This document shows positions 8,832 to 22,485 of a DNA stretch of 64,000 nt, piece after piece. The notes under the pieces were generated by a model, which saw only the letters and a program-made list of their open reading frames with translations, ran no database searches and was not told the origin of the DNA. Source of the stretch: Bacillota bacterium. Lineage in GTDB: Bacteria > Bacillota > Clostridia > Oscillospirales > Oscillospiraceae. The stretch covers positions 1-64,000 of the forward strand of contig JAETQY010000006.1 in NCBI GenBank assembly GCA_021770445.1, in the 5' to 3' direction. Every line of letters starts with the position of its first letter. Position 1 is the stretch's first letter. The position numbers and the translations under genes were made by a program.

Positions 8832-8883
8832 GATGGAAAAAGCGTAAAGCCGGCGGCCGTGGCGCGGGAGAAAGAGGTGTGTG

Positions 8884-10481
8884 ATGAGTACAATCCTGGA
8901 TAAGAAGAGCATGACCGAGGAGGATATCAAGCTGCAATATATCACTCCCGCGATAAAGTCGAAGTGGGATGTCGGAAAGATCACGATGGAGGCTAAGATC
9001 ACAGACGGCAAGATCAGCGTAGTGGACGGCCTTCCCGTCCGGGAGAAGCCAAAGCGCGCGGACTATCTCTTGTACCTGAGTGTCGGACAGCCGATCGCGG
9101 TGGTGGAGGCGAAGGACAACACCTACAGCATATCCCATGGACTACAGCAGGCCATGGAGTATGCCAGGATGATGGACCTCCCCTTTGCCTACAGCTCCAA
9201 CGGGGACGGCTTTATGGAGCACGATTTCCTCACCGGGGAGGAGCGAGAGTTCCCCTTGGATGAGTTTCCGACGGAAGCGGAGCTGATCGACCGCTGCAAG
9301 CGGGAGATAAACCAGGGGAAGGGACTGGCACCCGCCGAGGAGATGGCAATGAACCAGCCCTACTACAGCAGCCAGACCACCCATATCCCCCGATACTACC
9401 AGCGGGTGGCGATCAACCGGACAATTGATCGAATTGCCAGAGGGCAGCAGCGGCTGTTGCTTGTCATGGCGACCGGTACCGGAAAGACCTATACTGCCTT
9501 CCAGATTGTATACCGTCTGCTGAAAAGCGGCTTAAAGCGGAAGGTACTGTACCTGGCGGACCGGAATATCCTGGTCGATCAGTCCATCCAGCAGGACTTT
9601 GCGCCTCTGGAGAAAATCACGCATAAGATCAACTTCGCAAAGGACGATCCTGTGACCATTACCTCCCATGAGGTGTATTTCTCCCTCTACCAGCAGCTGG
9701 CCGGGAATGATGATACGGAAGAAGAGGTCGTTGAGGACGATCCGACCGCCCGTTTTGCCGCCCTGTTCCAAAAGGACTTCTTCGACCTTGTCATTGTGGA
9801 CGAGTGCCACCGCGGCTCGGCGAAGAAGGACAGCAGCTGGCGCAAGATTCTGGACTATTTCTCCTCCGCCGTTCAGATCGGAATGACGGCCACACCGAAG
9901 GAGACCAAGTATGTCTCCAATGTTGACTACTTTGGCGAGCCCGTCTATACATACAGCCTCCGGGAGGGGATCGAGGACGGCTTCCTGGCCCCCTTTAAGG
10001 TCATCCACATCAAGACCGATATCAGCGACGGCTGGCGGCCGGCCAAGGGACAGCGGGATGCCAACGGTGTGAAGATCCCGGACCGGGTCTATACCAACAG
10101 CGACTTTGATTACAAGATTACCATTGAGGACCGCATTCAACAGGTGGCCGCCGAGATCACCCGCTATCTGAAAAATACCGACCGGATGGCCAAGACGATC
10201 GTATTCTGTGCCACCGAGGAGGCGGCCCTGCGGATGCGGGACGCGCTGGCCAGGCTGAATTCGGATATGATGAGGGAGAACCCGGACTATGTTGTCCGCA
10301 TCACTGGCAGTGACCCCTACGGCAAGAGCAAGCTGAAGTACTTCATCTCTGCCTCCCGGGAGGGGCCGGTGATCGCCACCACCTCCAAGCTGCTCTCCAC
10401 GGGGGCCGACTGCAAGCTGGTCAAGCTGATCGTTCTGGACCAAATAATCGGCTCCATGACAGAGTTTAAGCAGATCATAGG
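8884..10481 (+). pseudogene. hsdR: Type I restriction endonuclease subunit HsdR, 5' part (interrupted)
   Basis: The first 532 codons of an R subunit. They contain an N-terminal PD-(D/E)xK-type nuclease region (ADYLLYLSVG...VVEAKD, about 60-80), a superfamily 2 motor with Walker A MATGTGKTYTA (about 197), DEAD-box-like VDECHRG, and GMTATP. The frame is broken by the Mu-like element after TEFKQIIG, inside helicase motif VI (normally QxxGRxxR), and then runs 17 codons into element DNA to a stop at 10531-10533. The ATG at 8884 has AGAGGTG 8 nt upstream. Joining to the 3' part at 18768 restores a 792-codon frame. Restriction activity should be lost. Confidence 0.93.
10477..10481. repeat. Target-site duplication, left copy (ATAGG)
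   Basis: ATAGG is found here and again at 18763-18767, on either side of the Mu-like element. A 5-bp duplication is the hallmark of MuA-type transposition. Confidence 0.88.
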
Positions 10482-10489
10482 TGTAGCCG

Positions 10490-10733
10490 CCCGCGCAAAG
10501 CGCTATTTTTCCCTTAGTCGCAAAAACGCCTGAAACCGTTGTAGCTGTAGGAGAAATGCCCGTTTTGACTAAGGGAAAAAGGACACGCAAAACGCAACTG
10601 AACACACGACTAAGGGAATTTCCCCTAAAACACGAAAACCCCGCAAGTGCCTGATATCACAGGGCTTGCGGGGTTTTGTGCGCGTTGATAAAGGGAATTG
10701 ACTAAGGGAAAAAGGACACACAAAACGCAACTG
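10490..10733 (+). repeat. Left-end transposase-binding repeats (L1-L3-like)
   Basis: Two near-identical 34-bp direct repeats at 10567-10600 and 10700-10733 share GACTAAGGGAAAAAGGACAC followed by GCAAAACGCAACTG or ACAAAACGCAACTG. A degenerate third copy (CGCGCAAAGCGC) lies about 10 bp from the left tip. Further GACTAAGGGA copies sit at 10608 and, inverted, near 10511. The layout matches the three left-end MuA sites of phage Mu. This gene-free stretch (10534-10768) otherwise holds only a terminator. Confidence 0.75.
10635..10677. terminator. Bidirectional terminator inside the element's left end
   Basis: A 13-bp perfect stem AAAACCCCGCAAG/CTTGCGGGGTTTT with a 17-nt loop; A- and T-tracts flank both sides. 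It would stop host transcription entering from hsdR and end the repressor transcript. Confidence 0.8.
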
Positions 10734-10768
10734 GATAAAAATTCACATTCAATGAATTAATATTCAAG

Positions 10769-11365
10769 TTATAACTTCATTTCTTCTCCGTACTTTTCGA
10801 GATAAACATTGATTGCATCTTTGACCGATTGATTGATGCGGTTTGTTGCAGCTGAGCAGGAATTCTTGAAGTCTACCCATCCCATTGCATCAGTCTTTGA
10901 GGGCAACACAGTAGATGATACCATCGTGCTAAGCTTTTCTAACTCATCTACAGTGGAGCAGAGAGCCTTTCTGTATTTTATGGTCTCCTGCAAGTCTAGC
11001 TTTTGAGCACCCAAAGCGCCGACAAGGTAACAAAATGCTTGTACCATGCAGGCAAGATCATCTCCAGTGGCAGCAAGGAGCATTTTTTCAAAAGAAACTC
11101 TTAAAGCATTATACTTTGCTATGGCCCCCTTATCTGTTGTTATATCCCATTCAGGCAATGGAGTTCCAGTACCCTCTAGCATCCATTCCTCACTAACTGA
11201 GAATTTCGCACATAGGAATTTGAGTAAACTCTTTGAAGGATTATCCCTTCCGTTTTCGATACCTGAGATGTGGGTTTGGGAAATACCTAACTCATAAGCA
11301 AATTGTTGCTGATTAAAGCCCAATTCTTTCCGGATATCCCTAAATCGCTCATTTACCGTTGGCAT
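10769..11365 (-). CDS. XRE-family repressor of the Mu-like element
   Basis: A 198-aa protein: N-terminal helix-turn-helix (residues about 3-60, FNQQQFAYELGISQTHISGI), then a helical C-terminal part with no recognisable LexA/CI-type protease. I start it at the ATG at 11365, which follows AAGGAGGAG; the upstream in-frame extension has no ribosome site. It faces away from the early regulator and transposase genes, as the c repressor does in Mu. One of the three repeated operator-like sequences overlaps its ribosome site, suggesting autoregulation. Confidence 0.85.
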   Translation of the reverse strand: MPTVNERFRDIRKELGFNQQQFAYELGISQTHISGIENGRDNPSKSLLKFLCAKFSVSEEWMLEGTGTPLPEWDITTDKGAIAKYNALRVSFEKMLLAATGDDLACMVQAFCYLVGALGAQKLDLQETIKYRKALCSTVDELEKLSTMVSSTVLPSKTDAMGWVDFKNSCSAATNRINQSVKDAINVYLEKYGEEMKL

Positions 11366-11377
11366 GATACTCCTCCT

Positions 11378-11461
11378 TATCGGAATCCCATAAATTCTTG
11401 TTGACAATATCGGTATCCGCTATTATAATAGAAGCAGACAACTAATTATATCGGAAACCGC
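11378..11461 (+). promoter_or_regulatory. Early promoter with three repeated operators
   Basis: A perfect consensus promoter, TTGACA (11401-11406), 17-nt spacer, TATAAT (11424-11429), drives the ner-transposase direction. Three related 13-bp sites, TATCGGAATCCCA (11378), TATCGGTATCCGC (11408, inside the spacer) and TATCGGAAACCGC (11449), have CGG-n3-CCG dyads and are the likely repressor operators. Confidence 0.75.
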
Positions 11462-11485
11462 TAAGGATTTCAAGGGGGTGAAGTT

Positions 11486-11728
11486 ATGTCGAGAACAACA
11501 AACCTTACCAACAAGCCGCCATTGGGGACCATGATAGGCAAGCGCCTAAAAGAAATAAACCAACAGCAAAAGTGGTTGGCACAGGAGGCCCGGATATCAA
11601 AAACATATCTGTGTGCTATCATGAATGGCCGTGCTATCCCAACGTTGGCAGCACTCAAACAGATCGCCAAACCGTTGGGCCTTGACCCTTTTGATTTGGT
11701 TGCGGCCTTATTTGGCAAGGAATCCTAG
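11486..11728 (+). CDS. Ner-like small helix-turn-helix regulator
   Basis: An 80-aa XRE-type protein that is essentially one DNA-binding domain (KRLKEINQQQKWLAQEARIS, then KTYLCAIMNGRAIPTLAALK). It is the first gene transcribed from the early promoter and precedes the transposase, the position of ner in Mu. It probably damps early transcription. Start: ATG behind AAGGGGGTG. Confidence 0.8.
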   Translation: MSRTTNLTNKPPLGTMIGKRLKEINQQQKWLAQEARISKTYLCAIMNGRAIPTLAALKQIAKPLGLDPFDLVAALFGKES

Positions 11729-11801
11729 GGATTCGGATTTGGCCAATGAAAATTTTCCTGTTTACATAGTATAAGTTTAGTTCGACAGGAGGTGATGCCC
11801 T

Positions 11802-13610
11802 TTGACATGGTTAACAGTACCAGACGTGGCTACTCTATGCAGAGTTACAGATAGCGCCGTCAAAAAAGCTGTTCAACAAAATAAATATCAGTACCGCTAT
11901 GTCAACGGCAAGGGGCGAGGCGGCAAGCAACTGCGCATCGCCTTAGAATCACTTCCAGAGTATGCACAGGCCCGATATCGCGGGGAAGTACCTCCTCCTG
12001 TGGATATTCTGCAATTTACAGGAAAGCAGCGAGATGAGGCCAACGCCAAGGCGTGGGTTGTGGAGCAGTACCAGCAAAAGGGACTATCCCCGGATGATTT
12101 TGTATCTTGGTTCAATTCCCATAATCCGGCCGAGGACGCTATCACCAAAAGCAAACTGTTCCGCTGGCAGAGAAAGTATCAAGAAAGAGATGTTGCGGCA
12201 CTGATCGACCAGCGCGGCGGACACAACCGGGGAAAGGATACCATTCCCGAGGAAGCGTGGGAGCTGTTCTATTCGCTCTATATGACTCAACAGAAGCGCG
12301 GCGTCAAGCTCTGCTATGATGTTACCAGGATGGAATACCCGGATATCCCCTCTTGCAAGGCATTTGAGCGCAAGGTCAAAACCATTCCCTATTATGCGGT
12401 TCTGTACTACCGGGACGGTCCGAAAGCATTCAATGACGCCCTTCCCTCCATGGAGCGTAGCAAGCTCGACATTGCATCAAATGATATCTGGTTCTCAGAC
12501 CATCATCTTGTGGATGTGTTCGTCAAGAGTGCAGACGGAGCCAGGGCAATCCGGCCATGGCTGACGGTGTTCTTTGATGCCAGGTCCAACCGTGTAGTAT
12601 CGTTCCTGGTCCGGGATGCCGACCCTAACGCAACAGCCGTAAAGAAGTGCTTCCGCCTTGGCGTAGAGCAGAACGGAGTACCTAACGAGGTTTATTTTGA
12701 CAACGGCAAGGATTATAGGTCCAAAAGCTTCAGCAAGGACTATCCTATGTCTTTGGTAAACCAACTTGGTATAGGTCAAATATACGCAACGCCCTACCAT
12801 GGTCAGGCTAAAACTGTGGAGCGATTTTTTGGTACACTTACCAACCGTTTCAGCCGTCGGTTCGACACTTATACGGGCTGTAACGCCAAAATCAGGCCCG
12901 AGTGTATGCAGATATCCAATAAAGAGATTGTGGCACAGGCCCCCACGCTGGATGAGTTTATCAAGTTGCTGTCTGCCTACATAGCGGAGTACAACCAGAC
13001 GGCTAACGGTGGTGTAGATATGGACGGAAAGTGCCCAGACCAAGTATACGCTGAAAATCTGGCAGTAAAGCGGGTTGTCAGTGATCTGAATGCCCTACGC
13101 CTTCTCTGTGGCAACTCGGAGGAGCGTGTCGTCCACAAAAACGGGATTTCCATTAAGAACAACAACTATTACAACGATGCACTCCTTTACCATCAGGGCG
13201 AACGTGTCATTGTGGTCTATGACCCGGATAACATTGATAAAATAGCTGTTTTTGATATGGAAAATCGCGCTATCTGTATGGCAGAGGCTAAAATCCGCAC
13301 CCCGTTCCGCCATACCAGTGAGGAAGATTACATCCGGGCTGCAAAAGAAAAGAAGAAAGCGCGGGCTATGGTTCAGAGGTACAAGCCCACCCGTGATGTA
13401 GACATCCATGAAATCATTGCCAGAAATCAACTCATGGAGAAGGTGTTCAGCGAATCTGGAGAGCCGGATATCGTAGAGCATATAACACCCCAGGCAGCTC
13501 GGAACGCTGCTACCCTCAAAGCCACAGACCGCGCCGAAACCGCCCGGCGCATTCGAGAGGAGGATAGTGTAAGCGCCACACTGTTAGATTTCTACCAAAA
13601 GCAAGCATAA
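11802..13610 (+). CDS. Mu-type DDE transposase (MuA homologue)
   Basis: A 602-aa transposase. An N-terminal MuA-like DNA-binding region (WLTVPDVATLCRVTDSAVKK) is followed by an RNase H-fold core and a Mu-transposase C-terminal barrel. Likely catalytic residues are D233 (SDHHLVDVFV), D300 (YFDNGKDYR) and E340 (TVERFFG). It starts at a TTG with AGGAGGTGAT just upstream; no ATG fits. MuA proteins bind the element ends, assemble a tetramer, cut and join them to target DNA with a 5-bp stagger. The MuB-like ATPase follows after 13 nt. Confidence 0.95.
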   Translation: MTWLTVPDVATLCRVTDSAVKKAVQQNKYQYRYVNGKGRGGKQLRIALESLPEYAQARYRGEVPPPVDILQFTGKQRDEANAKAWVVEQYQQKGLSPDDFVSWFNSHNPAEDAITKSKLFRWQRKYQERDVAALIDQRGGHNRGKDTIPEEAWELFYSLYMTQQKRGVKLCYDVTRMEYPDIPSCKAFERKVKTIPYYAVLYYRDGPKAFNDALPSMERSKLDIASNDIWFSDHHLVDVFVKSADGARAIRPWLTVFFDARSNRVVSFLVRDADPNATAVKKCFRLGVEQNGVPNEVYFDNGKDYRSKSFSKDYPMSLVNQLGIGQIYATPYHGQAKTVERFFGTLTNRFSRRFDTYTGCNAKIRPECMQISNKEIVAQAPTLDEFIKLLSAYIAEYNQTANGGVDMDGKCPDQVYAENLAVKRVVSDLNALRLLCGNSEERVVHKNGISIKNNNYYNDALLYHQGERVIVVYDPDNIDKIAVFDMENRAICMAEAKIRTPFRHTSEEDYIRAAKEKKKARAMVQRYKPTRDVDIHEIIARNQLMEKVFSESGEPDIVEHITPQAARNAATLKATDRAETARRIREEDSVSATLLDFYQKQA

Positions 13611-13623
13611 AGGAGGGAATGAA

Positions 13624-14532
13624 ATGCTTTCTGAAACCAGAGCCGCCCTTGCCGATTTTATGGAGCGCAGCGGCAAATCTCAGCGGCAGATATCCCGCGA
13701 AACGGGGCTTTCCACATCCGTTATCTCGCAGTTCCTGAATGGCTGCTATGCGGGGGACAATGAGGAAGTTGCCAAATCCATCAACCAGTATCTAACCATC
13801 GGTGAAGAGCGTTTAAACACTGTTTCAAAGACGCCTTTTTACCCGGAACTCTACAACACGCGGGAGGTTCTTTTTACCTGTCTCTATGCCCACCAGCACA
13901 ACGATATTACCTTAGTGAGCGGTGACGCGGGAGCGGGGAAAACAACCGCCCTTCGCTACTACGCCGAAACGAATACCGGGGTTATCTTCATCACGGCCAA
14001 TGCCTGTACCACATCGGCTACCGCCGTACTGGGCCTGATTTGTCAGCAGGTGGGGCGTCAGGTTCCGGGCCGGAAAGCGGCGCTCATGAATACGCTGGTG
14101 GAGCAGCTGGCTGGGACAAACCGCCTGATTATCATTGACGAGGCTGACCACCTGTCGCTGGACGCACTCCAGGCTGTACGCAATCTCAATGATCTGGCCG
14201 GGGTGGGTATCGTCCTATCCGGCAACGATAAGATTTACCGTCAGATGAAAGCCGGACGCCGGAGCTATGAGTTTGACCAACTCCGTACCCGGATCGTCAT
14301 CCGCAAAAAGATATATAACGATTACAAAATCGAGGAAATGGAAGCCATATTCCCCGGTCTGAGTGAAAGCTGTATCGGCTACCTGCTGAAACTGGCCCAC
14401 GGCGAGAGCCTACGCACCGCCAAAAAGCTGTATAACGTGGCAGCGGAATTTGCCGCCGCTCAGGGGGGCACCCTTACGGTGAAGCACCTTCGTGATACCC
14501 ACCGGCAGCTGTTAGGGGAGGTTTGCACATGA
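13624..14532 (+). CDS. MuB-like AAA+ ATPase (target-selection protein)
   Basis: A 302-aa protein: N-terminal helix-turn-helix (residues about 1-55, SQRQISRETGLSTSVISQFL) followed by an AAA+ domain with Walker A GDAGAGKTT (about residue 99) and Walker B RLIIIDEADH. The same architecture is found in Mu B, which coats target DNA, activates MuA and gives target immunity. It lies directly downstream of muA with its own ribosome site and overlaps the next small frame by 4 nt. Confidence 0.93.
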   Translation: MLSETRAALADFMERSGKSQRQISRETGLSTSVISQFLNGCYAGDNEEVAKSINQYLTIGEERLNTVSKTPFYPELYNTREVLFTCLYAHQHNDITLVSGDAGAGKTTALRYYAETNTGVIFITANACTTSATAVLGLICQQVGRQVPGRKAALMNTLVEQLAGTNRLIIIDEADHLSLDALQAVRNLNDLAGVGIVLSGNDKIYRQMKAGRRSYEFDQLRTRIVIRKKIYNDYKIEEMEAIFPGLSESCIGYLLKLAHGESLRTAKKLYNVAAEFAAAQGGTLTVKHLRDTHRQLLGEVCT

Positions 14533-14669
14533 ATGCCCACACAATAGCGGACAGGATAAATGAGAAAAGGACGGCTGCTACCGCAAATAACAGCCGCCCA
14601 GGCGCTGGGGCAACTTCCTGTCAGAAGTCCCCTACAGTATACCATCTGTTTCTCAGTTTTTCAAGATAG
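14529..14669 (+). CDS. Small hypothetical protein (46 aa) overlapping muB
   Basis: The ATG overlaps the MuB stop codon (ATGA), a typical coupling arrangement. The peptide is basic and polar (MNAHTIADRINEKRTAATAN at the start) with no recognisable domain. It may be a real coupled gene or just an open frame before the next gene; nothing beyond position and length supports it. Confidence 0.35.
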   Translation: MNAHTIADRINEKRTAATANNSRPGAGATSCQKSPTVYHLFLSFSR

Positions 14670-14701
14670 GACAGGCCCATTGTTTGAAAGGAGTGTTTTT
14701 T

Positions 14702-14998
14702 GTGGCAGAGTTTAACTTTGACAACCTGGATATCAGCAGAGTGAACAATGAGACCATCGCGGAGCTGGGGGAAGTCCTTTGGCAGTATACCTCGGTTCAC
14801 TGTCAGGAGGACATAGACATTGCTGAAAAATACCGTGATAGTGTCGATGCCTTAATGGATAGTCTCAATCCCAAGCAAAAGAAATGGTTCGAGGCTTACC
14901 AGGAAATGGTCTCTGATGAACTGGTTTTAGCGGAGCGGCGGCGCTTTGTCTGCGGATTCAAAGTTGCTATGCGGCTGATGCTGGAAGGCATGAAATAA
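14702..14998 (+). CDS. Small helical protein (98 aa), DUF6809-like pattern
   Basis: Starts at a GTG preceded by AAAGGAG; the upstream TTG of the same frame lies inside that ribosome site. The protein is all-helical, with the pattern ...EKYRDSVDALMDSLNPKQKK...AERRRFVCGFKVAMRLMLEG. Small proteins with this F-x-GF-x-A-x-LM-x-E ending are common on clostridial mobile elements; function unknown. It sits in the early/middle region of the Mu-like element. Confidence 0.65.
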   Translation: MAEFNFDNLDISRVNNETIAELGEVLWQYTSVHCQEDIDIAEKYRDSVDALMDSLNPKQKKWFEAYQEMVSDELVLAERRRFVCGFKVAMRLMLEGMK

Positions 14999-15012
14999 GG
15001 AGGAACTACAAA

Positions 15013-15318
15013 ATGTTGAGCAAAAAAGTTTTGGACGCTTTACGTGAGCAATTCCATGAGGAGTTCGGCGAGCTGAGTGAGAGGGACGGCTACATACAGC
15101 GCGTGAAAGCCGACGCTTTCGCGCTGATCGGCAGCATGGCCCCCAATGACAGGCGGTTGGAAGTTGAAGTCGATGACGCCATCACGGGCATTGTCTCCGC
15201 TTCGTCCCTGCTGGGCTTCTATATCGGCCTCAAAACCGGGGCCGATGTGGAGCGGTATATCTCCGATTCCAGGTTGCCGGAACAGATTTTGAAGGTGTAT
15301 CAGGAACTTAAAGAATAA
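15013..15318 (+). CDS. Hypothetical element protein (101 aa)
   Basis: ATG behind AAGGAGG, 14 nt after the previous gene. Acidic and helical, with a hydrophobic stretch VSASSLLGFYIGLKTGADVE that is too short and polar to be a confident membrane segment. Spacing and overall pattern suggest it is a relative of its upstream neighbour. A strong terminator follows, closing the early operon. Confidence 0.6.
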   Translation: MLSKKVLDALREQFHEEFGELSERDGYIQRVKADAFALIGSMAPNDRRLEVEVDDAITGIVSASSLLGFYIGLKTGADVERYISDSRLPEQILKVYQELKE

Positions 15319-15328
15319 CCTTGTTTCT

Positions 15329-15360
15329 ACCCCCGTTATCTCGCGTGATAACGGGGGTTT
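15329..15360 (+). terminator. Terminator ending the early transcript of the element
   Basis: A 12-bp perfect stem ACCCCCGTTATC/GATAACGGGGGT, 6-nt loop, then TTT. The gap to 15556 contains short dyads (TTAGAA-gcaa-TTCTAA near 15476; TGCTA...TAGCA near 15523) and a TACAAT at 15531 that may be the promoter region of the activator gene. Confidence 0.75.
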
Positions 15361-15556
15361 AAGCGTTTGGGTGTATTGTTTGCTATCTGCGAGCAAAGAC
15401 CGCTTATACGCCCTTTAAACGGCAATTTGAACGAGTGGCAAACAACAGGCGTCATTGCCAAATTTAAATTTTGCTTAGAAGCAATTCTAAGAATTGTTCG
15501 TGTAGAGAGTTCCAGAAAGTAATGCTACTGTACAATAGCAGTCTGCTACAAGGAAG

Positions 15557-15856
15557 GTGGTGCATAGTGTGCTTGAAAAATGGGTAGATGAACTGGTTCC
15601 CGCAATGCTATCAGACGAACTGCATAGAGAAATCGCTACAGAAATTGGTATGCACAATTTTCTAAAGCTTTCGCGGTTGGTAGGCGGCGGGGATTTCTAC
15701 GTACCACGCCAAGAAAGCATATTGCGCCCATTGCGGAATCAGAAAATCCAAGAGGAATTTAACGGGTGCAACACAAAAGAACTTGCTCGGAAATATGGCG
15801 TTAGCCAGCGGTGGGTGTATCAGATTGTAAAGCGCAGCGCAAAAAAACGCACATAA
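15557..15856 (+). CDS. Mor-family transcription activator
   Basis: A protein of up to 99 aa with a C-terminal helix-turn-helix (NTKELARKYGVSQRWVYQIV) and the N-terminal layout of the Mor/C activator family of Mu-like phages, which turn on middle or late genes. It precedes the head genes, as expected. The start is uncertain: GTG codons at 15557, 15560 and 15569 are in frame, and the AAGGAAGG site fits the last one best. Confidence 0.75.
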   Translation: MVHSVLEKWVDELVPAMLSDELHREIATEIGMHNFLKLSRLVGGGDFYVPRQESILRPLRNQKIQEEFNGCNTKELARKYGVSQRWVYQIVKRSAKKRT

Positions 15857-15872
15857 AGCAAATAGGAGGTAC

Positions 15873-16796
15873 ATGAAAATGATTATCAACAGCGGCACAA
15901 TCCGGGAAGCGTTTCAGAGCTTCAACACTGTATTCAACAAGGCGTTCCAGGAAATGGAGGCGCAGTACCCTCGCGTAGCTATGGAGGTTCCCAGTGAGAC
16001 GCGGGATGAGAGCTACGCATGGCTGGGGGCCGTCCCCTCCATGCGGGAGTGGATTGGAGACAGGGAGATCAAGAGCCTGACCGCCTACGGCTACACCATC
16101 CGCAACAAGGACTTTGAGGCCACCGTGTCCGTCCCCCGGAACGATCTGGAGGATGACTGCATCGGCGTCTACAAGCCCATGTTCCAGGATTTGGCCTACA
16201 GCGCCCGGAAACACCCGGACAAGCTGGTGTTCGGCCTGTTTCCCCGCTCCTTTACTGAGCTGTGCTTCGATGGCAAGCCCTTCATCAGCGACAACCACAC
16301 CCCAGCTATTGAGGGAAGGAAGGTTAAGCCTCAGAGTAACAAGGGGACGTATAAGCTTACGCCCGACAGCTACGGCGCGGCCCGCACTCAGATGATGTGT
16401 CTGGTAAACGACCAGGGCGAGGTTATGAACATCGTGCCCGACTTGCTGGTGGTAGCCCCTCAGAAAGAGGCCATTGCCCGTACCATCCTCATGGCAAGTG
16501 AGATCCACCAGGAAGTCAACATCTACAAGGACACCGCCGAGCTGCTGGTGGTGCCGGAGCTGGCCCCCAACCCGGAGCAGTGGTTCCTGTTGTGTACCAA
16601 GCGCCCGGTCAAGCCCTTCATCTTCCAGAACCGCCGCAAGGCCCAGCTTGTCGCGAAAGACAGACCCTCCGATGACAATGTTTTTATGAAGAAGGAATTT
16701 ATCTACGGCGTGGACGCCCGCTGTAACGCCGGGTATGGCCTGTGGCAGTTGGCCTTTGGTTCCACCGGTGAGGCGGATATGCCCGCTAAGGCATAA
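15873..16796 (+). CDS. Mu-like major head subunit (gpT)
   Basis: A protein of about 307 aa matching the Mu gpT family: N-terminal IREAFQSFNTVFNKAFQ, a WLGAVPSMREWIGDR motif and the VSVPRNDLEDD segment typical of this capsid protein. The hundreds of copies of gpT form the icosahedral shell. GGAGG lies 3 nt before the ATG at 15873 and 9 nt before the in-frame ATG at 15879, so the latter may be the real start. It is placed before the protease gene, the reverse of the Mu order. Confidence 0.9.
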   Translation: MKMIINSGTIREAFQSFNTVFNKAFQEMEAQYPRVAMEVPSETRDESYAWLGAVPSMREWIGDREIKSLTAYGYTIRNKDFEATVSVPRNDLEDDCIGVYKPMFQDLAYSARKHPDKLVFGLFPRSFTELCFDGKPFISDNHTPAIEGRKVKPQSNKGTYKLTPDSYGAARTQMMCLVNDQGEVMNIVPDLLVVAPQKEAIARTILMASEIHQEVNIYKDTAELLVVPELAPNPEQWFLLCTKRPVKPFIFQNRRKAQLVAKDRPSDDNVFMKKEFIYGVDARCNAGYGLWQLAFGSTGEADMPAKA

Positions 16797-16806
16797 GGAG
16801 GGCGCT

Positions 16807-17715
16807 ATGGATATCAATTACATTATCCTGAGCAATTCCCTTCCTTTTGAGGAAAGCAGCTACAGCGCCCAAACGCCCTACAAGATGGTAAAACTTCTCC
16901 CCTTGGGGCTGGTTCACAGCACAAAAGGGGATTTCTTGGTGGACAACGAATCCTTCCAGGCTATCCGCTGTAAGTTTACGGAGCGGCAACTCCAAATTCC
17001 CATTGACTATGAGCACCAGACCTTGAAGGATATGCAGGCCCCAGCAGCGGGCTGGATCAAGGATATCATACTGAGAAGCGATGGTATCTATGGCGCTGTG
17101 GACTGGACGGAGCGGGCAGCAGAATATTTGAAAAATAAGGAGTACCGCTACCTGTCCCCGGTTGTCCTGACCCAGGGGAAGGAGCGGCGGGTGGTTGCGC
17201 TCCACTCCGCCGCCCTCACCAACACCCCCGCCATTGACGCCATGACACCCGTTGCCTGTAGCGAGAAACCCAGCGAGGGTGAGAGCGGCGCGGATCAGAG
17301 TGAGGCGGACAGCAGCGGCAGGGGTATGGAGGCACTGGCGGAGCTGTTACAGCTTGATCCGTCTGCCACCATGGAAGATATCTATCAGGCCATCGCCGCA
17401 CTGCTGGAAGGGCGGGAAGCCCTGAAACTCAAAGCAGAGGCTTGCCAATTCGAGGTTGCCCGGATGAAAGCGGACGGCGTGGTACTAGAAGCGCTGAAAG
17501 AAGGGAAGGTGCTGCCCTTCCAGCGTGATTGGGCGTTCCAATCCGCTATAAATGATCTGGATAGCTTCACGCTTTGGCTTAAGACTGCTCCCCAGGTTGT
17601 GCCCATGGGTGAGGTTTGTGCCGAGAGGCTTCCCCAGATGCCGCACCATCGTTCCAGGGCGCATGAGTTGATGGGGCTGTCTGCTGAGGATGTCGCAAAG
17701 TATGGGAATATCTAA
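16807..17715 (+). CDS. Mu-like I protein: prohead protease/scaffold
   Basis: A 302-aa protein matching the Mu gpI family. The N-terminal protease part (LPLGLVHSTKGDFLVD..., IDYEHQT, then YLSPVVL and ALHSAALTNTPAID, about 30-150) is followed by an acidic linker and a helical C-terminal scaffold part. It would assemble and mature proheads made of gpT. Start: ATG at 16807 behind AAGGAGGGC, 10 nt after the gpT stop. The conserved His, Ser and Thr region looks intact. Confidence 0.88.
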   Translation: MDINYIILSNSLPFEESSYSAQTPYKMVKLLPLGLVHSTKGDFLVDNESFQAIRCKFTERQLQIPIDYEHQTLKDMQAPAAGWIKDIILRSDGIYGAVDWTERAAEYLKNKEYRYLSPVVLTQGKERRVVALHSAALTNTPAIDAMTPVACSEKPSEGESGADQSEADSSGRGMEALAELLQLDPSATMEDIYQAIAALLEGREALKLKAEACQFEVARMKADGVVLEALKEGKVLPFQRDWAFQSAINDLDSFTLWLKTAPQVVPMGEVCAERLPQMPHHRSRAHELMGLSAEDVAKYGNI

Positions 17716-17729
17716 GGGAGGGCTTGACT

Positions 17730-18041
17730 ATGGATTTTGAGAAAATCGGCGGACATAATGCCGCCGTCCGGGGGTATATCCTCCGTATGCTGGTAAAGGG
17801 CTATCACAACGCTTTGGCCGTCCACCGCATCTCTAACAGTCTCGTCCAGGATGGGCTGGTGTCCGATCCGGATATTTGGGAGCCGTTGAAGTACCTCTAT
17901 GATATGGGCTTCATTGAGTTCACCAACAAGAAAATTACCCCGGACACCGCCTATAGGCAAGACGGCGTGGCGCGGCTGACCACGAAGGGTGTCCACTTCA
18001 TTGAGGGCGGCGGCGACCCGAAATCGGGGATTGATCTGTGA
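17730..18041 (+). CDS. Hypothetical phage protein (103 aa), winged-helix-like
   Basis: ATG at 17730 behind GGGAGGG. Helical protein with a beta-hairpin-like middle (MGFIEFTNKKITPDT...VARLTTKGVHFIEG) that suggests a winged-helix fold. It overlaps the gp27-like gene by 1 nt, and by position it may correspond to the small gene (gp26) next to gp27 in Mu. I cannot assign a function. Confidence 0.65.
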   Translation: MDFEKIGGHNAAVRGYILRMLVKGYHNALAVHRISNSLVQDGLVSDPDIWEPLKYLYDMGFIEFTNKKITPDTAYRQDGVARLTTKGVHFIEGGGDPKSGIDL

Positions 18042-18607
18042 TGGGGAAGGCTAGGAAACCGCGCTCGGACGCAAAGATATACCAGCTCCCTAGAGCTGTC
18101 TTGGATGGTGTCAACGAGCGGTTGGTGAACTACAATATGAGCTATGCGGATATCGTTGCATGGCTTGCAGAACAAGGCTACAAAGTCAGCCAGTCATCCC
18201 TATCCCGCTACGCCTTCAAGGTGTTTGAATCGGCACAGCGTGTCGCCGATGACCTGGAAAAGACAAAGTACATCATTGATGTTATCGGCAGAAACCCCGA
18301 CCTGGACACCACCGAGGCTACCAGCGCCATTCTTAAAAGCGGGCTGTTGCAGAAGATTTCATCCGCTGAGGAAGAATTCAACAATATGCCTATTGAAAAG
18401 GCGGGGCGGCTGTTCGTCCAGTTGGCCAAGGCTGAGGCTGACCGCAAAAGGACGGACTACGCCACCAAACGAAAAGCGCAACTTGCCTTTGACCAGATGG
18501 AGGCGGACTTGCTGGCCCAGGTTCGACAGTACCCGGATTTGGCCGCACAGTTGAGGGACGTGCTCAATCAGGCCCGTACCCGAATAGCCAGTGCAGACCT
18601 TGAATAA
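18041..18607 (+). CDS. Mu gp27-like protein (DUF3486), putative small terminase
   Basis: A 188-aa protein with an N-terminal helix-turn-helix module (QLPRAVLDGVNERLVNYNMS, then YADIVAWLAEQGYKVSQSSL and SRYAFKVF) and a long helical tail, the pattern of DUF3486/Mu gp27. In Mu this gene precedes the large terminase gp28 and probably supplies packaging recognition; here no gp28 follows. The ATG at 18041 overlaps the previous stop. The downstream hairpin (CACAG...CTGTG, 18609-18653) may terminate transcription at the element's right end. Confidence 0.8.
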   Translation: MGKARKPRSDAKIYQLPRAVLDGVNERLVNYNMSYADIVAWLAEQGYKVSQSSLSRYAFKVFESAQRVADDLEKTKYIIDVIGRNPDLDTTEATSAILKSGLLQKISSAEEEFNNMPIEKAGRLFVQLAKAEADRKRTDYATKRKAQLAFDQMEADLLAQVRQYPDLAAQLRDVLNQARTRIASADLE

Positions 18608-18737
18608 AGCACAGCAGCGGCCCATCTCCATAAATGAAGGAGGTGGCCGCTGTGCATACTTATTCGATTTGCTTTCAGTTATTCCCATTTAAACATCGTT
18701 TAATTGCAGATAAAACCGTGTCTTTCAAGATTCTTCA

Positions 18738-18762
18738 ATTACGTTTTGCGTGTCTCCCCACA
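18738..18762 (-). repeat. Right-end transposase-binding site (R1-like)
   Basis: Read inward from the right tip, TGTGGGGAGACACGCAAAAC then GTAATTG matches the left-end repeats (GACACGCAAAACGCAACTG) in inverted orientation. Confidence 0.75.
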
Positions 18763-18767
18763 ATAGG
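18763..18767. repeat. Target-site duplication, right copy (ATAGG)
   Basis: Second copy of the 5-bp duplication; the hsdR frame resumes here as ATA-GGC-CGG (I-G-R). Confidence 0.88.
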
Positions 18768-19548
18768 CCGGGGGACCCGTGTGCGTGAAAAAAACGGGAA
18801 GACCCACTTTGTTGTGATGGACTTCCGAAATGTGACCCGGCTGTTTGACGACCCGGAGTGGAATGGCCCGGTGGAACAGACGGAGGGCTATGAGCCGGGG
18901 GGCGGCGGCATGAAAACCGCGGCGCCCAGGCGCGGGGACCCGCCGGCCATCCCCCCGGAGAAGCTGGTGGTGGACAGCGACGGCTGTAAGGTGGAGATTG
19001 TTGAGAAAATGGTCTCTATCTACGACCTCAGCGGGAAGCTCCTCCGGCGAGAGAGCATTGTGGACTATACCAGAGAGAATATTTTGAGCAAGTATGACTC
19101 TCTGGACGGCTTTGTCCGCCAGTGGATGGCAGAGGAGAAAAAGGACACCATCCGGAGCACGCTGCTGGAACGGGGGATCGACCTGAATGGGATGAGGGTG
19201 GAGCGGAACATGACAGATGTAGATGATTTCGACCTCATCCTCCATGTGGGCTTTTACAAGAAGCCGCTGACCCGCAGGGAGCGCGCCGACCGGGTCCAGA
19301 AGCGGGGCTTTTTGGACAAATACAGCGGTACCTCACGGGAGATATTGCAGGCCCTGCTGGATCAGTATGTAGACAACGGGGTCTATGAGATGGAAAAAAT
19401 AGAGATACTGAGGCTAGACCCCTTCATCAGATGGGGGAAGCCCGCCAGAATCGCGGCATATTTCGGAGGAAAGGCCGGCTATTTGGAGGCGCTCAGAGAG
19501 CTGGAGCGGGCGCTGTACACGGACGAAGCGGGGGAAGCGGATGAGTAA
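18763..19548 (+). pseudogene. hsdR: HsdR 3' part (C-terminal fragment)
   Basis: It continues HsdR in frame from the second half of helicase motif VI (IGRGTRVRE) through FVVMDFRNVTRLFDDP and an EcoEI_R_C-like C-terminal domain to the stop. An open frame runs in from element DNA at 18634, but nothing suggests it is translated usefully. The stop overlaps the hsdM start by 8 nt. No further damage is visible, so precise excision of 8,286 bp (element plus one duplication) would restore the gene. Confidence 0.92.
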
Positions 19549-21019
19549 TTTAACGGGATTTGTAAAGCGCCTGCGGAATATCATGCGCAACGACGCGGGC
19601 ATCAACGGCGATGCCCAGCGTATTGAGCAGATTGTCTGGATCCTCTTTTTGAAGGTCTACGACGGGAAGGAGCGGGACTGGGAGTGGGAGGATGAGGCCT
19701 ATCAGTCCATCATCCCCCAGCCGTGCCGCTGGAGAAACTGGGCGGCGGATGACAGGTCCGGGACCGCCATGACCGGCGACACGCTGTTGGATTTTGTCAA
19801 CAACACCCTGTTTCCCACCCTGAAAACTCTGCCTGTGAACGCCGATACCCCCATCAGGAAGGCCGTGGTGCAGACCACCTTCGCCGACGCCAACAATTAT
19901 ATGAAGGACGGCGTCCTGCTCCGGCAGGTTATCAACGTGATCGACGAGCCGGACCTGAGCGATTATCAGGAGAGCCACGCCTTCAGCAAGATCTACGAGT
20001 CCATTTTGAAGGAGCTGCAAAGCGCCGGAGCCGCCGGCGAGTTCTATACCCCCCGCCCCGTGACCGATTTTATGGCCCAGATGATCCGGCCGCGCATCGG
20101 TGAGCGCATGGCAGACCTTGCCTGCGGCACGGGCGGCTTTATGACCAGCTGGCTGAAGGAGCTGAAAAAGCAGGTCAAGACCACCCAGGACGAGCAGGAG
20201 TACAGGGCCTCTGTCTGCGGGGTTGAAAAGAAGCAGTTCCCCTATATGCTCTGTGTCACCAATTTGCTGCTGCACGACCTGGATGACCCGCGGGTGTACC
20301 ACGAGAACTCCCTTCTGAGAGATGTGCTGGATTATACGGAGGAGGACCAGGTGGAGGTGGTCCTGATGAACCCGCCCTACGGCGGCAACGAAAAGGCCGA
20401 CGTGAAAAACCACTTCCCGGCCGACCTGGCCAGTGGCGAGACGGCGGACCTGTTTATGTCCGTTATCATGTACCGCCTGAAAAAGGGCGGCCGGGCCGCC
20501 GTGATCCTGCCCGACGGCTTTCTGTTCGGCACGGACAATACGAAGGTGAACATCAAGAAGAAGCTGCTGGGGGAGTTTAATCTGCATACAGTGATCCGGA
20601 TGCCAAGCAGCGTATTCTCCCCCTACACCGGGATAACCACCAACATCCTGTTCTTCGACCGGACAGGCCCCACCAAGGAGACCTGGTTCTACCGGCTGGA
20701 CATGCCGGAGGGGTACAGGCATTTCAACAAGAGCCGGCCCATGAGGCTGGAGCATTTTGCCCCAGCCGCCGCCTGGTGGGACGACCGGCAGGAGCTGAGT
20801 GTTGACGGCTTTGACAAGGCAAAGCGGTTTACGGTCCGGCAGCTGACAAAGGAGCTGAAGTACAACCTGGACCAGTGCGGCTACCCCCACGAGGAGGAGG
20901 AGATCCTGGACCCCATGGACCTGATTCACCGGTACGAGGAGCAGCGGACCGCCCTGAACGCTGAAATCGACCAGGTGCTGGACCGGATCACCGCCATGCT
21001 GGGAGGGGAGACGCAATGA
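19541..21019 (+). CDS. hsdM: Type I restriction-modification methyltransferase HsdM
   Basis: A 492-aa N6-adenine methyltransferase: N-terminal HsdM helical domain (FVKRLRNIMRNDAGINGDAQ), a SAM-binding motif ADLACGTGGF (about residue 188), and the catalytic NPPY (LMNPPYGGNEKAD). With HsdS it forms the modification enzyme. The frame is intact, so methylation probably persists even though HsdR is split. It overlaps hsdR upstream and hsdS downstream. Confidence 0.95.
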   Translation: MSNLTGFVKRLRNIMRNDAGINGDAQRIEQIVWILFLKVYDGKERDWEWEDEAYQSIIPQPCRWRNWAADDRSGTAMTGDTLLDFVNNTLFPTLKTLPVNADTPIRKAVVQTTFADANNYMKDGVLLRQVINVIDEPDLSDYQESHAFSKIYESILKELQSAGAAGEFYTPRPVTDFMAQMIRPRIGERMADLACGTGGFMTSWLKELKKQVKTTQDEQEYRASVCGVEKKQFPYMLCVTNLLLHDLDDPRVYHENSLLRDVLDYTEEDQVEVVLMNPPYGGNEKADVKNHFPADLASGETADLFMSVIMYRLKKGGRAAVILPDGFLFGTDNTKVNIKKKLLGEFNLHTVIRMPSSVFSPYTGITTNILFFDRTGPTKETWFYRLDMPEGYRHFNKSRPMRLEHFAPAAAWWDDRQELSVDGFDKAKRFTVRQLTKELKYNLDQCGYPHEEEEILDPMDLIHRYEEQRTALNAEIDQVLDRITAMLGGETQ

Positions 21020-22485
21020 CCCCGCAAGAGCTAAAGAACAGCATCTTACAGCTGGCGATTCAGGGCAAGCTGGTGGAGCAGCGGCCGGAGGAGGGGACAG
21101 CCGAAGGGCTGTGCCGCCAGGCCAGGGCGGAAAAACGGCGGCTTATTCAGGAGGGTAAGATCAAAAAGGAAAAGCCTGTTCCGGAACTGACGGAGGGAGA
21201 GGTGCCCTTTCATATTCCGAAGAGCTGGAAGTGGGTGCGTCTGAGGGTGATTGTCTATAACCGGAAGCAGGTGGTTCCGTCTGACACGTTTTCCTATATA
21301 GACATAGGCTCAATTGACAACAGAAGGCAGCGGCTCAACAGGGAGGAGACATTTATTTCAGCAGGCGAGGCTCCCTCACGGGCCAGGAAGATCGTGGAGC
21401 GCGGCGACATCCTGTACGCGACAGTCCGGCCGTATCTGCACAATATGTGTATCATTGACCGGGACTTCACCTATCAGCCCATTGCAAGTACAGGCTTTGC
21501 CGTAATGACCTGCTGCGCAGGGATTTATAACAAGTATCTCTTTTACTACCTGTTGTCGCCTACATTTGACCGCTATGCCAATTCACGTGAGAATGCGAAG
21601 GGGGTTGCCTACCCGGCCATTAGTGACGATAGGCTGTACCGCGCAGCGGTGGCCCTCCCCCCGCTGGCTGAGCAAAAACGGATTGTCGACAGGCTGGAGG
21701 CACTGCTGCCCTGGGTTGACCGCTATGAGCAGGCCTGGGACCGTTTGGAGGAGCTGAACAAAAACTTCCCGACCGATCTGCAAAAGGCCGTTTTGCAGGA
21801 GGCCCTTCAGGGGAAGGTGGCCGGGCAGCGGCCAGAGGAGGGCACGGCAGAGGAGCTGTACCGTCAGATCCAGGGGGAGAAAAAACGCCTGATCCGGGAG
21901 GGCAAGCTCAAAAAGAGGAGGGCCCTGCCGAAAATTGGGGAGGACGAGGTGCCATTTGCGATCCCGAAGAGCTGGAAGTGGGTGCGGCTGGGCGATATTG
22001 TCCAGTTCAAGCCCAAAAACGATCTGGAGGACAACACGGAAGTTTCGTTCGTACCGATGGCGCTGATTTCGGATGGCTTTCAGAACCGCCACTCATGGGA
22101 AATTCGCCAGTGGAAAGAGGTCAAAAGAGGATTTACCCATTTCTCGGAGGGCGATATTGGAATCGCGAAGATCACTCCCTGCTTCCAGAATCGGAAATCT
22201 GTGATTTTCTCAGGGCTTCTGCATGGGCACGGAGCGGGGACGACAGAATTGTCAGTTGTCCGCGTGATCGGCGACCTGCTGTCAAGGGAGTATTTACTCT
22301 ACTTTTTCAAATCGGCTTATTTTATCGGGAATGGGGTCAAATCCTTTTCCGGGACGGCGGGCCAGCAGCGTATCCACAAGGACTACCTGCCGATGTGTCC
22401 CTTTCCCCTCCCGCCCCTGGAGGAGCAGAGGCGTATTGCGGCCAGGCTGAAGGAGCTGCTGTCGCTTTGTGAACAGTTAAAATGA
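21016..22485 (+). CDS. hsdS: Type I specificity subunit HsdS
   Basis: A 489-aa protein with two target-recognition domains, each followed by a helical spacer (LPPLAEQKRIVDRLEALLPW and LPPLEEQRRIAARLKELLSL). Each half begins with the same segment: QGKLVEQRPEEGTAEGL near residue 18 and QGKVAGQRPEEGTAEEL near residue 268, both leading to IPKSWKWVRL. This internal duplication gives the bipartite target recognition. Its ATG overlaps the hsdM stop (ATGA). The recognised sequence cannot be read from the protein. Confidence 0.94.
   Translation: MTPQELKNSILQLAIQGKLVEQRPEEGTAEGLCRQARAEKRRLIQEGKIKKEKPVPELTEGEVPFHIPKSWKWVRLRVIVYNRKQVVPSDTFSYIDIGSIDNRRQRLNREETFISAGEAPSRARKIVERGDILYATVRPYLHNMCIIDRDFTYQPIASTGFAVMTCCAGIYNKYLFYYLLSPTFDRYANSRENAKGVAYPAISDDRLYRAAVALPPLAEQKRIVDRLEALLPWVDRYEQAWDRLEELNKNFPTDLQKAVLQEALQGKVAGQRPEEGTAEELYRQIQGEKKRLIREGKLKKRRALPKIGEDEVPFAIPKSWKWVRLGDIVQFKPKNDLEDNTEVSFVPMALISDGFQNRHSWEIRQWKEVKRGFTHFSEGDIGIAKITPCFQNRKSVIFSGLLHGHGAGTTELSVVRVIGDLLSREYLLYFFKSAYFIGNGVKSFSGTAGQQRIHKDYLPMCPFPLPPLEEQRRIAARLKELLSLCEQLK

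Follow-up and report, generated by a model that had tools for sequence, protein, structure and literature searches.

What is an insertion of some 8 kb that combines the transposition genes of a Mu-like phage with a capsid gene and has no tail? The question is raised by a stretch of 64,000 nucleotides from an Oscillospiraceae genome (contig JAETQY010000006.1, positions 1 to 64,000; hereafter the window), in which an 8,281-bp element occupies positions 10482-18762. The element is probably a transposable phage satellite. It would use its own MuA and MuB, its own shells and its own small terminase (TerS), and a Mushuvirus-type helper phage would give portal, large terminase (TerL) and tail. Its anatomy, its conservation, its near-identity across genera and the cargo of its relatives are direct observations. 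A sequence-only reading of the window had proposed a Mu-type satellite that makes its own shells and supplies packaging specificity. This proposal gains support: both properties would fit the anatomy and the variant cargoes of the relatives.

Anatomy of the element

The element starts with TGTAG and finishes with CCCACA, giving TG...CA termini. ATAGG on either flank is a target-site duplication. Joining the flanks minus one ATAGG yields an hsdR frame that is open over 793 codons. The boundaries are right because the joined flanks restore this frame, and the coordinates, TG/CA ends and target duplication of the sequence-only reading were exact. The end site GACACGCAAAACG occurs at element positions 101, 234 (one mismatch) and 8261; a further match with three mismatches falls within MuB. 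MuA, MuB, TG...CA ends, repeated end sites and a 5-bp duplication identify a Mu-type transposable element. Its features are, by window position:

10477-10481: target-site duplication ATAGG, left copy (within hsdR)
10482-10760: left end with TG terminus and MuA-site-like repeats
10769-11368, minus strand: CI-type repressor (C); HTH_3, phage repressor PHROGs
11486-11728, plus strand: Ner/Cro-like regulator; Pfam/PHROGs profile match
11802-13610, plus strand: MuA-type DDE transposase; phrog_310 (PHROG E 2e-102), Mu-transpos_C
13624-14532, plus strand: MuB-type AAA ATPase; phrog_296 (E 1e-68)
14702-14998, plus strand: DUF6809 early protein; 35 bits, above cut-off
15013-15318, plus strand: orf101, small early protein of satellites with T/I cargo and of L030; no Pfam/PHROGs family
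15334-15353: 20-bp palindrome CGTTATCTCGCGTGATAACG, common to Mushuvirus-type phages
15557-15856, plus strand: Mor-type late activator; PF08765 (Pfam E 3.6e-21)
15873-16796, plus strand: major capsid protein gpT; PF10124 (Pfam E 1.4e-95)
16807-17715, plus strand: head protease/scaffold gpI with shortened C-terminal half; PF10123 (E 3e-62)
17730-18041, plus strand: orf103, gp26-like; homologue of the gene upstream of TerS in Mushuvirus-type phages
18038-18607, plus strand: gp27-type small terminase (TerS); phrog_426, PF11985 (E 7e-24)
18640-18762: right end with inverted MuA-site-like motif and CA terminus
18763-18767: target-site duplication ATAGG, right copy

All genes of the element have open frames. 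Pfam and PHROGs profile matches confirmed the repressor switch, MuA, MuB and the Mor-like activator recognised earlier. The earlier gene list was right for gpT, gpI, one unknown and gp27, and left the two small early genes, DUF6809 and orf101, unnamed. The unknown late gene is orf103, the gp26-like gene, which has 44-45% identity to the gene directly upstream of TerS in Mushuvirus-type phages; gp26 is what we take to be the Mu gene name. A structure model of orf101 is all-helical at low confidence (pLDDT 61, pTM 0.39).

Reading frames, Pfam and PHROGs revealed no portal, large terminase, tail or lysis genes within the 8,281 bp. The element is thus without the genes for a complete virion, and the near-identical elements L026 and L029 agree. 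The profile matches of gpT, gpI and TerS point to genes that may redirect assembly and packaging.

The insertion interrupts a type I restriction locus. The hsdR parts lie at 8881-10481 and 18763-19548, and hsdM- and hsdS-like genes follow at 19541-22485 (these two names, and mnmG below, were assigned by eye from reading frames).

Compact relatives and their changing late cargo

Relatives were collected by MuA searches (10 loci in GTDB-species contigs, 5 in IMG/VR) and by an alignment search, which added L037 and L062. The set of 17 loci comprises those with MuA of at least 48% identity. L020, L024, L025 and L033 end at contig ends, and the right end of L028, near a contig end, is uncertain. 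The contig searches used few peptide patterns; the set of relatives is therefore a sample. A MuB scan gave at least 46 loci, and 12 new ones were annotated.

Eight elements are full-length (window, L019, L021, L022, L023, L026, L029 and L031; 8,134-8,300 bp). All eight keep the order of 11 genes, with 79-100% nucleotide identity over aligned stretches. The repressor of L022 is divergent, its match being confined to the DNA-binding part. The five full-length elements with both flanks occupy different sites, four of them with target duplications (ATAGG, TATGG, TTTAT, CTTCG). The contig of L023 equals the element exactly, end to end; that of L029 begins at the left end and that of L019 one base before it. 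Four candidate target duplications each were found for the ends of L027 and L028, and none for L030, L032, L034 and L035. The ratio of non-synonymous to synonymous substitution rates (dN/dS) was 0.03-0.20 for T, I, orf103 and gp27 in seven pairs. No gene exceeded 0.32, the value reached by DUF6809; for C, ner, DUF6809 and Mor, several pairs yielded no ratio. A search for the same gene set and ends at other sites, which had been proposed as a check, thus found compact relatives with the same layout and ends; most are intact, and purifying selection acts on them.

No locus of the 17 displays a complete late gene set, four of them being cut by contig ends. The loci and their flanks were searched with 15 proteins of the Mushuvirus mushu phage FP_Mushu (NC_047913). 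TerL, portal, minor head, struct, adaptor, neck, sheath, holin, lysin and Gam had no match in any locus, flanks included; T, I, gp23 (gp26-like), TerS and the tape measure protein match some of them. By similarity to TerS of the window or of FP_Mushu, 12 of the 17 loci have this gene. It was not seen in the four loci cut by contig ends and in L028. Had the relatives all been full-length prophages, the element would have to be seen as a decaying one; they are compact elements with a gene order of their own.

The element moves between hosts as an intact unit, as indicated by conserved layout, low dN/dS and a near-identical copy across genera. This copy, L026, is 99.99% identical and sits at another site in a genome (G165, assigned by contig coordinates) from another genus of the same family, in which an mnmG-like host gene has 75% identity to that of the window's genome. 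L029 from IMG/VR has 99.9% identity to the element. Megablast found no match to the element in plasmids. Against phage records, MuA reached 29% identity at best among the best 10 of 193 matches, none of the 193 exceeding 60%; no gpT match among 214 exceeded 60%.

The window's genome has a further end of this kind. Contig C21 (L008, 18.4 kb) carries a 116-bp right end at both termini, inverted, at positions 1-116 and 18292-18407. This end is identical to that of L019 over 40 bases, and about 18 kb of host DNA lie between. Two oppositely oriented copies of a second satellite would produce this arrangement, and so would intramolecular replicative transposition that inverted the DNA between. The left end of a second, L019-like element was not found in the genome bin.

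Behind Mor, the relatives differ. L034 has the same late block (gpT 85%, gp27 76%) behind a MuA of just 34% identity. L035, L090 and L105 have the order x-TerS-Mor-T-I, converging on an inverted transposase half. L027 encodes a neck protein, a scaffold, a non-Mu capsid (phrog_422) and TerS; L028 a tape measure; L033 a capsid (phrog_267); L062 a lone portal (phrog_533) adjoining TerS (16350-17726); and L113 (MuA 37%, MuB 49%) a capsid and a tape measure. The cargo of L030 consists of an I-type protease domain, a further protein, a tape measure, a gp26-like gene and TerS. Its tape measure (L030 7398-9716) shares 79% identity over 431 amino acids with that of FP_Mushu and its I domain 63% over 165 amino acids, the closest tie of a satellite to a named phage that was found. 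This suggests that L030 is a satellite acting on tail length. Single morphogenesis modules vary in the relatives; the steps of assembly that are redirected seem to differ within the family, as may the helpers. The balance tilts towards a new family of transposable satellites: the late region behind Mor would hold varied single modules, each hijacking a different assembly step, and members with Mushuvirus-derived cargo would keep a near-central cis-site shared with their helpers.

Mushuvirus-type phages as candidate helpers

By gpT, the nearest named phage is FP_Mushu (54% identity), followed by 47% for the gp26-like protein, 41% for TerS and 36% for gpI. Both have MuA/MuB mobility, Mor and a palindrome, which stands beside gpI in the phage. 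FP_Mushu differs in being a full phage of 36.6 kb with TerL, portal, tail and lysis genes, and its MuA has 23% identity to the satellite MuA. The late order is x-27(TerS)-TerL-portal-minor head-I-T in FP_Mushu and the related Oscillospiraceae prophages G011, G112, G171 and G172; G165 and G489 show parts of it. The satellite order is T-I-x-27, with T and I swapped and placed before the x-27 pair. The statement of the sequence-only reading that this is no sub-order of the phage order holds against FP_Mushu and four related prophages. The full late set of a Mu-like phage (x-TerS-TerL-portal-minor head-I-T-tail) is not present in the element.

The gpT proteins of ten satellites form one clade with a support of 100/100. 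Their gpIs are shorter, 291-311 amino acids in ten satellites versus 343-371 in four phages, and all ten have no residue where the four phage gpIs hold 49-63.

Strong Mu portals (E <1e-100) occur in 4 of 400 family genomes, and any portal above the cut-off in 10 of 400. A strong portal was present in two of nine genomes having elements with MuA of at least 80% (G165, G489) versus three of the remaining 397 of these 400 (Fisher p ~0.004; the table took 396 negatives, the exact number being 394, with negligible effect). The phages of G165 and G489 are 94% identical over the 3.8 kb compared. In G165, the element was rejected as a deletion derivative of the resident phage: the resident gpT has 51% identity to that of the window, and the order from TerL to T is the phage order. 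Contig C26 of the window's own genome holds a different phage region (L053) with a distantly related portal of Mu type and a protein that, by eye, resembles a sheath; it is not clearly a helper. Another genome (G760) has a Mu-type gpT frame with one TAA inside the match (L086).

A cis-site is shared as well between these phages and satellites whose cargo is of the T/I type or Mushuvirus-like. The 20-bp palindrome sits between orf101 and Mor in the window element. An exact scan of IMG/VR gave 23 stretches. Fourteen belong to Mushuvirus-type phages, in which the site adjoins minor head and I (both neighbours visible in 11, one in 3; L099, L100 and L104 look like one phage). One is a Mu-like phage with the palindrome elsewhere (L089), and eight are compact elements or fragments with satellite gene order, four of them already known (L034, L035, L030, L032). 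The palindrome is also found at L082 17610, at L010 17738 and in L088-L110. In all six Mushuvirus-type genomes of which the stretch was fetched, the best match falls between minor head and I (13-18 of 18 bases; the start of I in G112 was placed by hand). Shuffled FP_Mushu reaches 12-15 of 18, so that what stands out is the common location and not any single score of 13-14.

The palindrome is a candidate for a central gyrase-type site or for a helper-linked regulatory site. It lies at 49-61% of the element length in eight satellites (ends of L030 and L034 placed by hand). The annotated gyrase cut site of Mu is at 17,879 of 36,717, between G and I, and a central position matters for Mu, as stated in a part of PMC10052514. 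Five elements whose cargo is not of the T/I type (L027, L028, L033, L062, L113) matched it poorly (at best 11-13 of 18, a level that shuffles reach too), which makes the helper-linked site at least as likely. A role as late promoter or operator only is unlikely: in L035/L105, L090 and L094/L108 the two element halves converge on the palindrome, and gpI runs toward it. A plain terminator is unlikely in the phages, where the core, by eye, is without long complementary arms or a T-run.

The life cycle, including activity, particles, shell size and helper use, is predicted from sequence. At rest, the element would be silenced by its repressor. Once derepressed, it would multiply by replicative transposition with its own MuA and MuB, as expected from their homology, the ends and the target duplications. 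The late operon T-I-orf103-gp27 would be turned on by Mor. Satellite shells may form from gpT and the shortened gpI and would perhaps be smaller than those of the helper, since gpI is shortened in its presumed scaffold half. Together with the adjacent orf103, gp27 probably steers packaging to satellite DNA, given its TerS homology. A co-resident or infecting Mushuvirus-type phage would supply portal, large terminase, connectors, tail and lysis, since these genes are absent and both ancestry and a cis-site are shared.

Alternative explanations and known satellites

Several observations weigh against a transposable satellite with a Mushuvirus-type helper. A target duplication is missing in L022. 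Damage is seen in some copies: an internal deletion in MuB of L024, a frameshift in gp27 of L032 and a shifted C-terminus of gpI in L021. Only 3 of 400 family genomes have close copies, and the carriers are mainly metagenome bins. It is midpoint rooting that places the gpT clade beside the Mushuvirus-type phages; support for the fork of the phages themselves is weak (86/63), and long branches drew a warning from the tree program. The co-residence count is tiny, with no strong Mu-type portal seen in seven of nine carrier genomes, and the late cargo of three of the nine (L020, L024, L025) is only partly seen. The window's own genome has a weak Mu-type portal (E 7.6e-31, on contig C26). L062 adjoins PcfJ/PcfK and RecD2-like genes, and transfer by other mobile elements is possible on this ground.

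The neighbours of L062 would suit a transposon of Mu type that relies chiefly on conjugative or other mobile elements for its spread and whose structural genes poison the assembly of incoming Mu-like phages; L030 and L032 adjoin FtsK-like, Fic-like or recombinase-like frames (by eye only). Such a transposon is improbable. A pure poison would hardly need the TerS found in 12 of 17 loci, and the pairing of the T capsid with a protease and of the L027 capsid with a scaffold also speaks against it. A satellite may instead travel in helper heads of normal size, its DNA being packaged by the headful as in Mu together with long stretches of flanking host DNA; T and I would then serve interference and not a small shell. 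Varied flanks would give contigs such as those of L023, spanning the element exactly, and of L029, beginning at the left end. The shortening of all ten satellite gpIs at the same place and the conservation of a full capsid gene with a protease point to an own shell, which leaves headful export as a minor possibility.

The damage in L024 and L032 and the homology of the genes to those of full Mu-like phages are what a decaying Mu-like prophage, retaining both ends and stripped of most late genes, would show. Decay is very unlikely in view of one layout in all eight full-length elements, different sites of the five with both flanks, low dN/dS, a single gpT clade, no full late set in the 17 loci (four cut by contig ends) and a gene order that is no sub-order of that of the phages. 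The conserved relatives led to its rejection as a general account; an individual copy such as L024 may have decayed. Structural genes in the absence of a complete phage might also mark a domesticated host device or gene-transfer agent. This is scarcely credible for an element with its own transposase and repressor that occurs at different sites in different hosts, with target duplications and a near-identical copy in another genus.

If the element is a transposable satellite, transposition as its mode of replication would make nearly any site open to insertion, cause mutations in the host and free the parasite from reliance on its phage for replication. It would carry host flanks if packaged as Mu is. 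The swap of single modules (shell, portal, tape measure) on related backbones would be a natural experiment on the virion parts that a parasite must own, and the shortened gpI leads to a testable prediction of shell size. Mushuvirus-type gut phages are pointed to as the exploited hosts. The element is from gut bacteria; intact relatives in other bacteria suggest a family of parasites that move in the manner of Mu and make use of particles of Mu-like phages.

The element resembles laboratory mini-Mu, a small Mu-ended element packaged by a Mu helper. Mini-Mu is engineered and without late morphogenesis genes, whereas the element is natural and conserved. Phage-inducible chromosomal islands (PICI, including SaPI) and P4-like satellites have an integrase and a fixed site; the element has MuA/MuB and 5-bp duplications at varied sites. 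Common to both are a small genome and TerS or scaffold genes by which packaging or shell size is redirected, following the part of PMC10690885 on these satellites. PICI/SaPI and P4-like satellites remodel the helper's capsid protein, whereas the element brings its own. Capsid-forming PICI (cfPICI), like the element, have their own capsid, protease and TerS; they use a helper tail. Their full head and packaging set, as listed in that part of PMC10690885, comprises major capsid protein, protease, portal, connectors, TerS, TerL and HNH. Of these, portal, TerL, connectors and HNH were not found by Pfam and PHROGs in the element, which moves by MuA. P4, PICI, cfPICI, PLE, PICMI, VEIMEs and tycheposons are not described as MuA-based in the relevant parts of PMC10690885 and PMC11389934. 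Among the titles and abstract starts listed in searches of an open-access library, none describes a Mu-type satellite. The Streptomyces satellites MulchRoom and MiniFlayer have small and large terminase, portal, capsid, scaffold and adapter and use virulent helpers, according to a part of PMC10690885. Like these satellites, the element carries capsid and packaging genes and would depend on a helper.

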